This document shows positions 19,825 to 31,471 of a stretch of DNA of 40,783 nucleotides, one piece after another (position 1 is the first letter of the stretch; each line of letters starts with the position of its first letter). This DNA is from an uncultured Eubacteriales bacterium. Lineage in GTDB: Bacteria > Bacillota > Clostridia > Christensenellales > Aristaeellaceae. The notes below the pieces were generated by a model. The model searched no databases. It saw only the letters and a list, made by a program, of their open reading frames with translations, and was not told the origin of the DNA. The position numbers and the translations under genes are program-made. The DNA is taken from assembly GCA_900315675.1 (NCBI GenBank), contig OMZY01000024.1, positions 1 to 40,783 of the forward strand, written 5' to 3'.

Positions 19825-20954
19825 GTACTGCAAAGAAAAGCCAGGTCCGCGAACCTCTGATTCACCTGAGCAAGCGGGCTTCCGTGAATCCGGTGAGGGC
19901 CTGGGCCATTCGCATCGCGGCTGTTGTGCTGGGCCTGATTGTGTGCGGCCTGGTGGCGTTCCTGCTGATTGACAAGCTGAACGAGAATCCGGGAAGAATC
20001 GGAGACTTTTATGAAGCCTTTATCAAAGGCTCCTTCTCTACAAGCCGTAAACTCTGGAAATTCCTGAAGAACATTGCGATCCTGCTGTGCATCTCCCTGG
20101 CGCTGACGCCGGCATTCCGGATGCGGTTCTGGAATATCGGCGGTGAAGGACAGACGCTGGTCGGCGTACTGGGTGCCATTGCGGTGGATTTTTACCTGGG
20201 CGGTTTGATCCCGGAATGGCTTCTGCTGATCCTGATGTTTGCCGCGGCACTGCTGGCCGGTATGGTCTGGGGTGTGATCCCCGCGCTGTTCAAGGCCAAG
20301 TGGGGGACAAACGAAACGCTGTTTACCCTGATGATGAACTACGTGGCAACCTTCCTGGTGGCCTACTTCCTGGTGGTCTGGGTACCGAGCGGTTCCTCCT
20401 CCCTGGGCAAGCTGAAATACGGAAAGCTGCCCTCCATCGGCAATGATTACCTGCTGATTATCCTGATCGTGCTGGCACTGGCGGTCGGCCTGTATATTTA
20501 CCTGAACTATACCAAGCACGGCTATGAGATTAACGTGGTGGGCGAGAGCGTGCGCACCGCGCAGTATGTGGGCATCAATGAGAAGAAGGTTATTATCCGG
20601 ACGATGATCCTGTCCGGCGCACTGTGCGGCCTGGCAGGATACCTGATCGCCGCGGGCCTGGACCAGACGGTGACCACAGAATCCGCCGGCGGCCAGGGAT
20701 TCACGGGAATCATGGTGGCCTGGCTGGGCAAATTCAATCCGCTGGCGATGATCCTGACTTCCGCCCTGATTCAGCTGCTGAACCAGGGTGCGGCGCAGAT
20801 CAGCCAGGACTTTGACGTGTCCGGCGCGTTCCCGAACGTGATCGTCGGCATTATCCTGTTCTTCATTATCGGCAGTGAATTCTTTATAAACTACGAGATC
20901 CATTTCCGCGGTCATCACAGCCATGCGGAAGCCGGAAAGGAGACCGTCAAATGA
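19821..20954 (+). CDS. Nucleoside ABC importer permease 1 (NupP type)
   Basis: 377 residues from a GTG overlapping the ATPase stop (GTGA); AAGGAGGAGG precedes it. It is a branched-chain/nucleoside permease (BPD_transp_2) with about ten hydrophobic helices. The conserved FWNIGGEGQTLVG is followed by the cytoplasmic segment VGESVRTAQYVGINEKK (about 236-252), characteristic of BMP-linked permeases. It ends in a His-rich tail. It forms the channel with permease 2. Confidence 0.93.
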   Translation: MSTAKKSQVREPLIHLSKRASVNPVRAWAIRIAAVVLGLIVCGLVAFLLIDKLNENPGRIGDFYEAFIKGSFSTSRKLWKFLKNIAILLCISLALTPAFRMRFWNIGGEGQTLVGVLGAIAVDFYLGGLIPEWLLLILMFAAALLAGMVWGVIPALFKAKWGTNETLFTLMMNYVATFLVAYFLVVWVPSGSSSLGKLKYGKLPSIGNDYLLIILIVLALAVGLYIYLNYTKHGYEINVVGESVRTAQYVGINEKKVIIRTMILSGALCGLAGYLIAAGLDQTVTTESAGGQGFTGIMVAWLGKFNPLAMILTSALIQLLNQGAAQISQDFDVSGAFPNVIVGIILFFIIGSEFFINYEIHFRGHHSHAEAGKETVK

Positions 20955-21904
20955 ACATCTGGCTGAACTTTCTGATTGACTCCCTTGCGTTCGGCGCCAC
21001 CTTCATGTACGGCTCCACGGGCGAAATCCTGACGGAAAAAGCCGGCCATCTGAACCTGGGCATTCCGGGTATTATGTGCATGGGCGGAGCCGGCGGCTGC
21101 CTGGTTCTGAACATGATCGGCAAGAGCGGCCTGCCGCCGTTCCTGATCGTAATCCTGGGCATCCTGGGATCCCTGCTGCTGGCAATGTTCTGCGGACTGA
21201 TCTATTCCTTCCTGACGGTGAGCCTGCGCGCCAACCAGAACGTGACGGGCCTGGCCCTGACCACTTTCGGCGTCGGCCTGATGAAGGTGATCATGAGCAA
21301 GCTGGACGCGACCGTTTACCTGATCGGACCGAAGATGATGTACCGCTGGCCCTTTGCCGGACGGCAGGACAGCCTCCAGTGCCTGGGCGTGCTGTTCTTC
21401 CTGGCGATCATTATTGCACTGTTGGCCAGCTGGGTGCTGTTCCGCACCCGGGTGGGACTGCAACTGCGTGCCGTGGGTGAAAATCCGGCAACGGCGGACG
21501 CGGTGGGCATCAACGTGACCCGCTACAAGTACCTGGCCACCTGCATCGGCAGCGGAATTGCCGGATTGGGCGGATTTTACTACATCATCGACTATATGGT
21601 TTCCCAGGAAGCCTACCTGAGCCTGGAAGCCTTCGGCTGGCTGAGCATCGCGCTGGTCATTTTCGCTCTGTGGCGGCCGCATATGACCATTATCGGATCC
21701 ACCGTATTCGGATTCCTGTTCTCCTGCTCCAGCTTTATCACGAATATTCCCGGGATTCAGGTGACCATGGCGGCCAAGCCGCTGCTGAAGATGCTGCCCT
21801 ATGTGGTGACGATCATCGTCCTGGTGATTTCCAGCATCCGGAATAAGAGAGAGAATCAGCCGCCGGCTTCACTCGGATTAAGCTATTTCCGCGAGGAAAG
21901 ATAA
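20951..21904 (+). CDS. Nucleoside ABC importer permease 2 (NupQ type) with recoded C-terminal tail
   Basis: 317 residues from an ATG overlapping the previous stop (ATGA). The N-terminus contains FGATFMYGSTGEILTEKAGHLNLGIPGIM, typical of the second BMP permease. The cytoplasmic segment VGENPATADAVGINVTRYK is conserved. The last 14 residues, PPASLGLSYFREER, occur again 240 bases downstream (22100-22144) with seven different but synonymous codons. Here the tail uses less common codons (TTA, TCA, GGA, CTC, CGC), while the downstream copy uses CTG, AGC and GGG as the rest of the gene does. A 13-base inverted copy of 21852-21864 lies just after the stop. Both point to an insertion event at the gene's 3' end. 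Confidence 0.93.
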   Translation: MNIWLNFLIDSLAFGATFMYGSTGEILTEKAGHLNLGIPGIMCMGGAGGCLVLNMIGKSGLPPFLIVILGILGSLLLAMFCGLIYSFLTVSLRANQNVTGLALTTFGVGLMKVIMSKLDATVYLIGPKMMYRWPFAGRQDSLQCLGVLFFLAIIIALLASWVLFRTRVGLQLRAVGENPATADAVGINVTRYKYLATCIGSGIAGLGGFYYIIDYMVSQEAYLSLEAFGWLSIALVIFALWRPHMTIIGSTVFGFLFSCSSFITNIPGIQVTMAAKPLLKMLPYVVTIIVLVISSIRNKRENQPPASLGLSYFREER

Positions 21905-22099
21905 AGTGGTATAATGAGGCGGCTGATTCTTCCGCAACCTCAATGGTCGCAGCTCCCTTACCGGGGCTGCCGCCCGTTCTCCACTGAAAACTGTCCACTG
22001 GACAGTTTTCCGGGCGCTTCGAACCCATGGAGCCTGCTCCCTTTCGGTTGACCTCACCTCTTTCGAGATTTCTGCCACTGGCAGTCGAAAGAGGTTCGC
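21905..22099 (+). ncRNA. Structured repeat, Part I, copy A
   Basis: Begins with an inverted 13-base copy (21918-21930) of the permease gene end. Hairpins seen: CGCCCG (21971-21976) with CGGGCG (22011-22016), enclosing GAAAACTGTCC-ACT-GGACAGTTTTC (21986-22010); and an 11-bp stem 22056-22066 with 22085-22095, enclosing GATTT and CTGCC-ACT-GGCAG. CAACC (near 21935) can pair with GGTTG (near 22047). Copy B at 23733 has the same plan with compensatory changes; copy C at 31327 is a shorter minus-strand version. Whether it is transcribed and acts as RNA, or acts as DNA hairpins, is not known. Confidence 0.7.
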
Positions 22100-22144
22100 C
22101 CGCCGGCAAGCCTGGGGCTGAGCTATTTCAGGGAAGAAAGATAA
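22100..22144 (+). pseudogene. Displaced 3' end of the permease gene (14-codon relic)
   Basis: Reads P-P-A-S-L-G-L-S-Y-F-R-E-E-R-stop in one frame, identical in amino acids to the end of the permease at 21860-21904, but 11 of 42 bases differ and every difference is synonymous. It has no start or upstream coding sequence. The relic begins five bases after the last stem of repeat copy A. It is either the original gene end pushed away by an insertion that supplied a recoded tail, or the remnant of a deleted paralogue. Confidence 0.85.
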
Positions 22145-22160
22145 TACCAATTCAGAATTC

Positions 22161-22336
22161 TGCGATCGCTGTTACCAGAATGCCATTGGCATTTTGACAG
22201 CTGCAGCATGGGAGTCATTAGCCGTGAATGGCTCGGTGTTACCAACGCTAAAGCGTTGACACCTGCATGGACGATCTGTTACCAGTGCTAAAGCACTGAC
22301 AGATCAGTCTGAAGCACGGATGACTCCTCAACAATT
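22161..22336 (+). ncRNA. Structured repeat, Part II, copy A
   Basis: An outer stem GGAGTCAT (22211-22218) with ATGACTCC (22320-22327) encloses two modules of one design: GGTGT-TACC-AACGC-TAAA-GCGTT-G-ACACC (22235-22263) and GATCTGT-TACC-AGTGC-TAAA-GCACT-G-ACAGATC (22273-22305). A third module of the same kind precedes the outer stem (22168-22201: GCTGT-TACC-8 bp-G-ACAGC). Short heptanucleotide stretches flank it on both sides. Copy B (23722-24075) keeps the same pairing with compensatory changes. It ends 40 bases before the DegV gene, but copy B is not before a related gene, so a cis-regulatory role is not supported. Confidence 0.72.
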
Positions 22337-22375
22337 AATACTTCATCCTGCTGCAGTAGGATACGGGGGAAATTT

Positions 22376-23233
22376 ATGAAGATCAGAATGACTGCGGACA
22401 GTACCTGCGACCTGACGCCGGACTGGATCCGGAAGTATCATATCGGAGTGGCTCCGCTGAGCGTGATCATTGACGGAGAAGTGTTCCATGACGGTGTGGA
22501 CGTAACGCCCCGGGACATTTTCCGCGCAGCGGAGGCCGGCAAGTCTGTCCGGACAGCCGCGGTAAACACCTACGAGTACAAGGAATTCTTCAGGGAACAG
22601 CTGAAGAACTGCGACCAGCTGGTGCATGTCTGTCTGAGCAGTGAGTTTTCCACGAGCTACAATGACGCGGTGGAAGCCAGCCGGGAAGTAGGCAACGTGT
22701 TTGTGGTGGACAGCCGCAATCTTTCCACCGGCAGCGGATTGCTGGTGCTGGAAGGAATGAGGATGATCAACGAAGGCGCGGAAGACGGAGCAGCGATTGC
22801 CGAGGCGCTTCGCGCAAAGACAGGGCTGGTTTCCTCCAGCTTTGTAGTCAGGACGATTGATTATCTGCGCCGGGGCGGCCGCTGCAGCGGACTGGAGGCC
22901 CTGGGCGCCAAGATGCTACACATCCGGCCTTCCATCATCGTGGCGGACGGCAAGATGCATCCCGGGCAGAAGTACCGGGGACGGTATGAGCACTACCTGA
23001 AACACTATATCCGCGACCTGCTGGAAAATGATAACAACATTGATTTCAGCCGGGTGGTGGTTGTTCATTCTCCCAGTGAAGAAGGCCTCGTACGGTTTGC
23101 CATTGACACGGTCAAAAGTTACGGTCTATTCCGGGAAGTGCTGGAAGCCATGGCGGGATGCACGATCTGCACCCATTGCGGACCTGACACGCTGGGGCTG
23201 ATGTTCATGCGGAAGGAAAAAACCAATGGATAA
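22376..23233 (+). CDS. DegV-family fatty-acid-binding protein
   Basis: 285 residues from the ATG at 22376 after CGGGGGA. It has all the family landmarks: TADSTCDL at the N-terminus, the lipid-binding CLSSEFSTSYNDA (about 85-97), IDYLRRGGRCSG, IRPSIIVADGKM and CTHCGPDTLGLMF at the C-terminus. DegV/FakB proteins bind a fatty acid and present it to a FakA kinase for acyl-phosphate formation; no fakA is seen here, so the partner would be elsewhere. The downstream gene overlaps its end by 8 bases, indicating co-transcription. Confidence 0.93.
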   Translation: MKIRMTADSTCDLTPDWIRKYHIGVAPLSVIIDGEVFHDGVDVTPRDIFRAAEAGKSVRTAAVNTYEYKEFFREQLKNCDQLVHVCLSSEFSTSYNDAVEASREVGNVFVVDSRNLSTGSGLLVLEGMRMINEGAEDGAAIAEALRAKTGLVSSSFVVRTIDYLRRGGRCSGLEALGAKMLHIRPSIIVADGKMHPGQKYRGRYEHYLKHYIRDLLENDNNIDFSRVVVVHSPSEEGLVRFAIDTVKSYGLFREVLEAMAGCTICTHCGPDTLGLMFMRKEKTNG

Positions 23234-23702: not shown

Positions 23703-24085
23703 TGAAGAGTGATGAGAGAAGTGCGATCGCTGTGTTCCGCAATCTCAATGGTCGTAACTCCACACAGTGGAGCTTACGCCCTTTCGATTGTTTGCCCGGG
23801 GCTGCCGCCCGTTCTCCACTGAAAACGATCCACTGGATCGTTTTCCGGGCGTTACGAACCCCAGATCCGATGAGATTTCCGCCACTGGCGGTCATCGGCT
23901 CTTCGCCCAAAGCTCTGTTCACTAACGCTCCAGACCTTTGGCAGCTGTAGCATGGGAGGCATTCGCATCGAATGGCTCGGCGATACCAGCGCAGAAGCGC
24001 TGACGCCTGCATGGACGATCTGTTGCCAGCACTAAAGTGCTGACAGATCTGTATAAAGCGTTGATGCCTCCTCAACTGAAGAGTG
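23703..24085 (+). ncRNA. Structured repeat copy B: Part I nested in Part II
   Basis: Part I hairpins: CGCCCG/CGGGCG (23806-23811 with 23846-23851) enclosing GAAAACGATCC-ACT-GGATCGTTTTC (23821-23845); and CCGATGA-GATTT-CCGCC-ACT-GGCGG-TCATCGG (23867-23898). An additional CTCCAC-ACA-GTGGAG hairpin is near 23758-23772. Part II: outer stem GGAGGCAT (23955-23962) with ATGCCTCC (24064-24071); modules at 23979-24007 and 24017-24049. The sequence GCGATCGCTGT, which starts module 0 of Part II in copy A, lies here before Part I (23723-23733), so Part I appears inserted inside module 0. TGAAGAGTG flanks the whole unit as a direct repeat (23703-23711 and 24077-24085). This fills the gap between two convergent genes. 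Confidence 0.72.
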
Positions 24086-31180: not shown

Positions 31181-31254
31181 GGCTCAATAGCTCAGTTGGC
31201 TAGAGCATTCGGTTCATACCCGGAGTGTCATAGGTTCGAGTCCTATTTGAGCCA
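31181..31254 (+). tRNA. Elongator tRNA-Met (anticodon CAT)
   Basis: 74 bases without encoded CCA. The acceptor stem is GGCTCAA/TTGAGCC, the anticodon loop TTCATAC and the T-arm ATAGGTTCGAGTCCTAT. A tRNA-Ile with a modified CAT anticodon cannot be excluded from sequence. It lies three bases after tRNA-fMet. Its 3' half recurs downstream in inverted (31301-31326) and direct (31445-31471) copies. Confidence 0.93.
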
Positions 31255-31297
31255 CATAAGAAAAACAGATCCCTAGTGGATCTGTTTTTTCTTATGT
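31255..31297 (+). terminator. Rho-independent terminator of the tRNA-Met unit
   Basis: CATAAGAAAAACAGATCC, a 5-base loop and GGATCTGTTTTTTCTTATG: a long stem with a six-T stretch in its 3' arm. Confidence 0.88.
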
Positions 31298-31300
31298 CAG

Positions 31301-31326
31301 GGCTCAAAAGGACTCGCCTATGACAC
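31301..31326 (-). repeat. Inverted copy of the tRNA-Met 3' half
   Basis: All 26 bases match the complement of 31225-31253, with three single-base or two-base gaps relative to the tRNA. It can pair with the direct copy at 31445-31471 and so close the structured repeat between them. Confidence 0.85.
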
Positions 31327-31444
31327 GACGGGTCCCGGGGGACAGCCGCCGAGGACTGCCAGTGGCAGAAATATCGTCGGCGGCTGTCTCAACCGAAACA
31401 AGCGATCCCCCCAGTGGGGAGTCGCGCCGATTGAGGCTGCGGGG
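31327..31444 (-). ncRNA. Structured repeat, Part I, copy C (opposite orientation)
   Basis: GACAGCCGCCGA (31341-31352) pairs with TCGGCGGCTGTC (31377-31388), enclosing CTGCC-AGT-GGCAG (31356-31368). On the minus strand this reads stem, ATATTT, CTGCC-ACT-GGCAG, stem, as in copies A and B. A second CCCC-AGT-GGGG hairpin (31409-31419) lies within 31402-31425. The minus strand also has CCTCAAT...TTTCGGTTGAG, matching the opening of copies A and B. Confidence 0.65.
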
Positions 31445-31471
31445 ATAGGTTCGAGTCCTATTTGAGCCACA
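31445..31471 (+). pseudogene. Direct copy of the tRNA-Met 3' end (27 bases, perfect)
   Basis: Identical to 31230-31256 (T-arm, 3' acceptor strand and the next bases). The rest of the tRNA is absent. It is followed by AAGACAAGGCTGC and a T-run, possibly the tRNA's former downstream sequence. Confidence 0.9.

Follow-up and report, generated by a model that had tools for sequence, protein, structure and literature searches.

A short hairpin repeat lies between duplicated, diverged gene ends at several unrelated genes of a clostridial genus

The window analysed here is a stretch of 40,783 nucleotides (contig OMZY01000024.1, assembly GCA_900315675.1) from an uncultured Eubacteriales bacterium of the family Aristaeellaceae, whose genome is denoted G000; its relatives in this study are Clostridia genomes from rumen and gut samples. 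On the forward strand, as are all the features of this locus, lies an ABC-type permease gene (20951-21904), an open reading frame with a Pfam BPD_transp_2 match and a C-terminus shared with relatives across the genus; the substrate is presumably a nucleoside, a label taken over from an earlier note on this DNA. The last 14 codons and the stop of the gene (in-gene tail, R', 21860-21904) recur downstream as a relic tail (R, 22102-22144), the reading frame of which opens at 22100, within the last two bases of an intervening repeat that we call E. The earlier note had described this recurrence as purely synonymous, and comparison of the sequences and translations bears this out: both tails encode PPASLGLSYFREER followed by a stop codon, and they differ at 11 of 45 bases in seven codons, with no amino-acid change. 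The 13-base inverted copy that it had placed right after the gene is also there and is exact: L, the part of the gene immediately 5' of the insertion point (21852-21864), is matched in inverted orientation by L^rc at 21918-21930, which abuts E directly and is also present in G002 (with one mismatch) and in G050. E together with a nested module occupies 21931-22101; E proper comprises 21931-21960 and 22027-22101, and the module, a 66-nt hairpin (21961-22026), sits in the loop of its first hairpin and is absent from the permease E of G002 and G050.

The permeases of the relatives read normally end in the same conserved C-terminus as the duplicated tail. In the whole G000 genome the pattern SYFREER-stop matches only twice, at the two permease tails, and E has no general tail beside it; a fixed tail borne by the element was rejected on these grounds. 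When 4452 open reading frame ends (both strands, overlapping loci included) were scanned for a copy of the last 12 residues and stop within 450 nt, four distinct peptide pairs remained after identical pairs had been merged; the permease pair is one of them and also covers G002 and G050. The other three are a weak 7/12 match, a pair inside intergenic repeats and a related tail of G077 that is simply repeated in tandem, the homologous permease end (L176, 2421-2590) being duplicated over 95 nt without E. As the earlier note had stated, the in-gene tail carries the less common codons and the relic those typical of the gene (geometric-mean RSCU 0.72 versus 1.35), the former value lying below every 14-codon window of the permease body (minimum 1.01). 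Codon-poor ends proved to be frequent: among 151 genes from the window and further loci, 19 have a tail below all of their own windows and 46 have their last 14 codons at or under their own gene's 5% level, and among 23 genomes codon-poor permease tails are also seen in the E-less species G001, G005, G016, G019, G022 and G043. Rare codons were therefore dropped as proof of a foreign tail.

Element E is about 105 nt long, forms two hairpins, is non-coding as far as seen and is present in 39 of the 45 genomes of the genus (E-value 1e-10). The copies gathered number at least 177 distinct ones, of which 138 are full length; the full copies used measure 103-107 nt, with consensus ends TCCGC and TTCGCCC. 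The fold shows covariation in an alignment of 26 copies chosen from 67 thinned ones: standard pairs fill 99.0% of the pair cells, both partners vary in 24 of 33 pairs, and the observed covariation score was not attained in any of 500 shuffles. E matches no relevant Rfam family, and a search of positions 21700-22500 up to an E-value of 5 returned a single match, mir-145, far below the gathering score and outside E. What the earlier note had called a roughly 200-base structured repeat is indeed structured, but it is not a single unit. Relative to the relic, E may lie either way round. The 66-nt module occurs again in the window at 23796-23861 and in L013 and L016; it nests in other repeats and is also found alone, in L013 beside a tRNA-like sequence (by eye). 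Among further copies of E, one near oriented position 1221 of L261 (G050) is in frame within a low-complexity coding stretch with the antisense frame open, and head-to-tail arrays of approximately 100-nt units occur in L381 (G052) as well as in G023 and G062. At L218 (G043) a related core lies near a ribosome-binding site, and the leader and a Shine-Dalgarno-like sequence are duplicated.

The permease junction is not confined to one species. A YFREER pattern was found in 199 of 308 family genomes and twice in eight of them, with the two matches on different contigs in G165, G220, G268 and G286; the scan and later reading together identified three genomes, G000, G002 and G050, in which two close tails flank E. 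All three share the order gene tail, stop, spacer, inverted 13-mer, E and relic tail, the E end TTCGCCC is joined to the relic sequence GCCGGC in each, and all six tails encode the same peptide. The two tails of G002 likewise differ at 11 bases, all synonymously, and the relics of G000 and G002 differ from each other at six positions, again all synonymous and including an AGC/TCT exchange; the simulated chance of this without selection is 2.5e-4. The spacers between stop and inverted copy are unrelated among the three cases, though E is identical in G000 and G002. From tail to relic the distance is 240 in G000 versus 173 in G002 and G050; only in G000 does the relic share the reading frame of the gene, and a role for it as an alternative-frame end was dropped on that ground. 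Between G000 and G002, 100 of 100 aligned bases of E (one unaligned) and 225 of 228 aligned bases of the intergenic DNA after the relic, a palindromic repeat mosaic at 22145-22375, are identical, against 87% in the flanking genes (600-nt stretches) and 37 of 43 bases in the relic. The divergence of the relic is thus that of a gene, whereas the non-coding DNA on its two sides has hardly changed, and these near-frozen repeats possibly reflect recent exchange or homogenisation.

As to which of the two permease tails is the native one, the earlier note had expected relatives without the repeat to read the relic-type tail, and had taken the in-gene type in such relatives as grounds for refutation. 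The closest E-less relatives, G022 and G043, do carry the in-gene type, with 5 differences to the G000 in-gene tail and 12 to the relic; the corresponding numbers are 9 and 11 for G001, and 14 and 9 for G005. Sixteen E-less tails outside the close clade show a mean of 6.8 differences to the G000 relic versus 10.6 to the in-gene tail. For G002 the outgroup means are 9.4 to the relic versus 13.1, and for G050 they are 7.4 versus 6.6, the relic not being the nearer. The closest and the more distant E-less tails disagree, and at the permease either tail may be the native one. One reading is that the close clade would have inherited the replaced tail, some of its members later losing E and the relic.

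A signal peptidase gene (Pfam Peptidase_S26) of G002 ends in RTVKNGLDVE and a stop, followed by a hairpin, E and a relic that ends in RAVQNGLDVKAD and a stop. In 42 genomes with a match, the best match was read in nine E-less relatives. In eight of the nine, as in the relic, the V/F position is followed by three further residues (for example DVKAE, DFKAE, DVSAE, EVSSK), while the ninth, in G057, is short (DVK and stop); the in-gene DVE-stop or its threonine occurs in none. The expected relic-type end at E-less sites is thus found here, eight of nine genes having the end length of the relic and none the in-gene end of G002.

The window itself contains a second unit of the same architecture, at a tRNA-Met gene. 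The tRNA gene (31181-31256, that is, 31181-31255 plus one base) is followed on the forward strand by a terminator-like hairpin (31258-31293) and an imperfect inverted copy of the tRNA 3' end (31301-31333); then come a 96-nt variant of E on the reverse strand (31348-31443) and the relic tRNA-Met 3' end, again on the forward strand (31444-31471). Ten genomes were searched at this locus and eight could be read (G001 lacked the anchor and in G005 the contig ended): the site is empty in G057, holds E in G000, G022, G043 and G052, and holds a related but different core (by eye) in G002, G016 and G050. The empty site of G057 reads straight into an end and terminator of the relic type seen in G043, as would be expected if empty sites read into the relic-type end; since the last relic and terminator of G043 resemble empty G057, the terminator beside the working tRNA-Met is the added one there. 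The tRNA-Met of G002 is a misfit with this simple order, because the terminator beside its working tRNA looks native-like and the downstream context differs. Both G022 and G043 contain three relic T-loop fragments, each adjoining an E end, and two units stand in series at the tRNA-Met of G052 and at the 5S rRNA of G014. The tRNA-Met junction recurs within about 3 nt with different cores, and the inverted copy covers the sequence just upstream of it, over 17 of 17 bases in G016 and G050 and over 12 to 15 bases in the other four sequences compared.

The same plan of working end, E and relic is seen at tRNA-Pro of G001 (L205), at a tRNA of G048 (L372), which Rfam detected and ARAGORN did not, and at four 5S rRNA loci (L213, L329, L357 and L327, in genomes G012, G014, G045 and G050). 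At three of the four 5S loci, as at tRNA-Met and tRNA-Pro, the working and relic terminators differ (by eye) while the RNA part is kept, so that simple duplication in place does not account for the working end there. At L372, in contrast, the duplicated 59 nt are identical, terminator included (59/59), and at L329 the ends agree at 53 of 55 bases; these look like local duplications and count against import of the working end. An inverted copy lies between working end and E at tRNA-Met, tRNA-Pro, tRNA-Ala (L202), L372, 5S and the permease. As at tRNA-Met, it spans the sequence just upstream of the junction in L325, in 5S and in the permease; the signal peptidase and L203 showed no such copy. 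Gene starts are duplicated too, with 7 of 27 bases differing at L203 (G050) and 13 of 39 at L325 (G062), in mirrored order and with the unit on the other strand. The proposal that other copies of the repeat would be flanked by duplicated gene ends has thus held at several unrelated genes, the signal peptidase, gene starts, tRNAs and 5S, where the ends are duplicated and diverged. E marks sites with a working end on one side and, on the other, a relic end abutting E.

Such sites are a minority of the copies of E. Duplicated functional ends were recognised at 14 loci among the 177 collected copies, a count that leaves out the related-looking but ambiguous L202, L251, L269 and L326; the remaining copies were screened by scans and partial reading and showed no such ends in the scans. 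The replacement end is consequently not a fixed part of the repeat. When the left and right flanks of each copy were aligned, 17 of 174 usable copies scored 40 or more, versus 1.6% of mispaired flanks (about 3 expected); by our reading, functional genes are concerned in eight of these, ambiguously so at L251 and L269, and intergenic repeat or E sequence in nine. Short or diverged true cases score below 40 (the permease of G000 and G002, L205, L325, L327 and L357). Inverted copies near E are enriched on its 3' side, where 8 of 174 score 40 or more against a null of 0.23% and five of the eight are at tRNA genes, and more weakly on its 5' side (3 of 174, null 0.35%).

The best explanation, which we hold with about as much belief as doubt, is that a diverged gene end was imported along with E in a homing-like manner. 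A short unit would enter a gene close to its end, at a defined position. Its working side would consist of a coding tail and stop, a start and ribosome site, or an RNA 3' end with its terminator; after this there is often a hairpin, or else the gene sequence of the junction in inverted copy. This end would have arrived with E from a diverged allele of another strain or species, a homing-like or recombination event copying the donor's gene end and E into the recipient gene; the relic abutting E would be the recipient's former functional end, now displaced, which would explain why relics of three species differ only synonymously. Import would likewise account for the new terminators, the relic-like E-less sites and the serial units. 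The claim that the element brought its own replacement tail fares well at the signal peptidase and tRNA-Met, where the relic is native-like, and poorly with respect to the closest permease relatives and to a fixed tail. Further points against import are the unrelated spacers of the three permease cases, the occurrence of E in either orientation to the relic, and the small share of E copies (14 loci among 177) with recognised duplicated ends. The inverted copy may help to place the insertion by pairing with the target, and since it spans the sequence just upstream of the junction, a targeting role is conceivable. A bolder version, that E-units are protein-free, guide-carrying mobile elements whose inverted copy pairs with the target and directs insertion, the recoded end saving the gene and spoiling the target, strikes us as improbable. 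At the loci read, the two ends are at most a few hundred nucleotides apart, and the DNA between them shows E, terminator and inverted copy but no recombinase gene or homing endonuclease ORF; we have linked no recombinase, nuclease or reverse transcriptase to E.

Local duplication through template switching of replication at hairpins, of the tandem-inversion-duplication type, is a possible but rather doubtful alternative: the nascent strand would fold back at the hairpin of a terminator, copy the end in inverted orientation and return, with E at, or entering, the second junction and divergence following later. It explains the inverted copies between working end and E, at tRNA-Met, tRNA-Pro, L202, L372, 5S and the permease, and the identical or nearly identical ends at L372 and L329, and it agrees with the position of modules of these repeats in hairpin loops. 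A functionless relic should, however, gain amino-acid changes, whereas within G000 and within G002 the two permease tails differ at 11 bases, and the relics of these genomes differ from each other at six, every one synonymous; nor does such switching account for working and relic terminators that differ where the tRNA part is identical, or for a tRNA-Met junction repeated within about 3 nt with different cores. Import and template switching may both occur. The reverse order at the permease, in which the in-gene tail is native and the inverted copy, E and relic were inserted after the stop with a foreign tail fragment, draws on the in-gene-like tails of E-less G022 and G043 (5 bases away, against 12 for the relic). 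We consider it unlikely, given that the relic, with its terminator, is the native-like side at the signal peptidase and tRNA-Met, and that the intergenic sequence downstream of the G000 relic is the one found downstream of the stop in G022 (142 of 145 aligned bases).

Synonymous-only differences across three species, and the gene-like divergence of the relic between G000 and G002 (37/43) amid a surrounding E at 100/100 and intergenic DNA at 225/228, might also be expected of a living alternative end whose expression continues, for example once the DNA or RNA in between has been excised. This is very improbable: the relic is in frame in G000 (240) but not in G002 or G050 (173), excision would have to run from junction to junction, and the unit lies on the other strand at gene starts, where the order is mirrored. 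The remnant of a deleted tandem paralogue, which the earlier note had offered as its alternative, would fit the duplicated tail and synonymous divergence of the permease alone and deserves hardly any credence. No second such gene lies in the 400 nt 3' of the tail at any of the 24 permease loci read, the G000 genome has no other close copy of the permease, the same junction is present in three species, and the tRNA, 5S and gene-start cases share the design.

Several known systems resemble these units in part. Integrative elements and prophages insert at the 3' ends of tRNA genes or icd, restore the gene end, leave the old end outside and accrete serially; their length runs to kilobases, they code for an integrase and they stay with a single target. 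E-units share the insertion near a 3' end, the restored end, the old end outside and the serial units, but they have several targets and no integrase in the intervening DNA. A restored end with the old end outside is seen at the signal peptidase (8/9) and tRNA-Met (G057), and the permease is mixed. Tandem inversion duplications have direct, inverted and direct segments in that order, with copies expected to be identical at the start and no separate repeat. That order is present at tRNA-Met, tRNA-Pro, L372 and 5S, and at the permease with only 13 nt inverted; copies from one local source are indicated at L372 and L329, and not where terminators differ or divergence is purely synonymous. Origin-dependent inverted-repeat amplification, in the part of its description at hand, has the same segment order. 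MITEs are defined by terminal inverted repeats and a short target-site duplication; the consensus termini of E, TCCGCAA and GGTTCGCCC, do not form an inverted repeat, and the duplications scored beside E were the long gene ends, with a small number of empty sites read. REP repeats, as defined in the accessible part of their description, are 20-40 bp long with GTAG or CGTC at one end (PMC3733652), and E, at 103-107 nt with the ends TCCGC and TTCGCCC, has no such tag. Like E, the REP, BIME and MITE sequences of that source are short dispersed hairpin repeats, sometimes nested or inside ORFs, but duplicated or replaced gene ends are not described in those sections (PMC3733652). In the open-licence literature we recognised no identical case of gene-end duplication by bacterial hairpin repeats.

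The outcome has its closest known parallel in the C-terminus replacement by mobile ORFs (mORFs) of fungal mitochondria, for which horizontal transfer of replacement ends has been inferred (atp6, atp9, cox2 and nad3; Allomyces atp6), as far as the available text of the source goes (PMC3630166). As with E-units, a diverged C-terminal end there replaces the native one, which persists as a relic beyond the element (PMC3630166). The mORFs, in that text, are found in protein genes and include a homing endonuclease ORF, whereas E is about 105 nt long, dispersed and bacterial, and is also found at tRNA genes, 5S genes and gene starts. Fungal mitochondrial introns, according to the excerpt available, also exchange gene-end fragments with the element, but are introns (PMC7315562).

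What is found beside E, an apparently replaced end and a relic, resembles the trace of large integrating elements, here in one bacterial genus and marked by a hairpin repeat. End replacement with a relic is in bacteria a hallmark of integrases. It is also a hallmark of homing endonucleases in fungal mitochondria. The same outcome around a 105-nt hairpin repeat, at coding tails, gene starts, tRNA and 5S genes, suggests that either some trans-acting machine has escaped recognition or an error of replication imitates homing. If each unit swaps in a new gene end or terminator, it would offer core genes a way of acquiring foreign ends.
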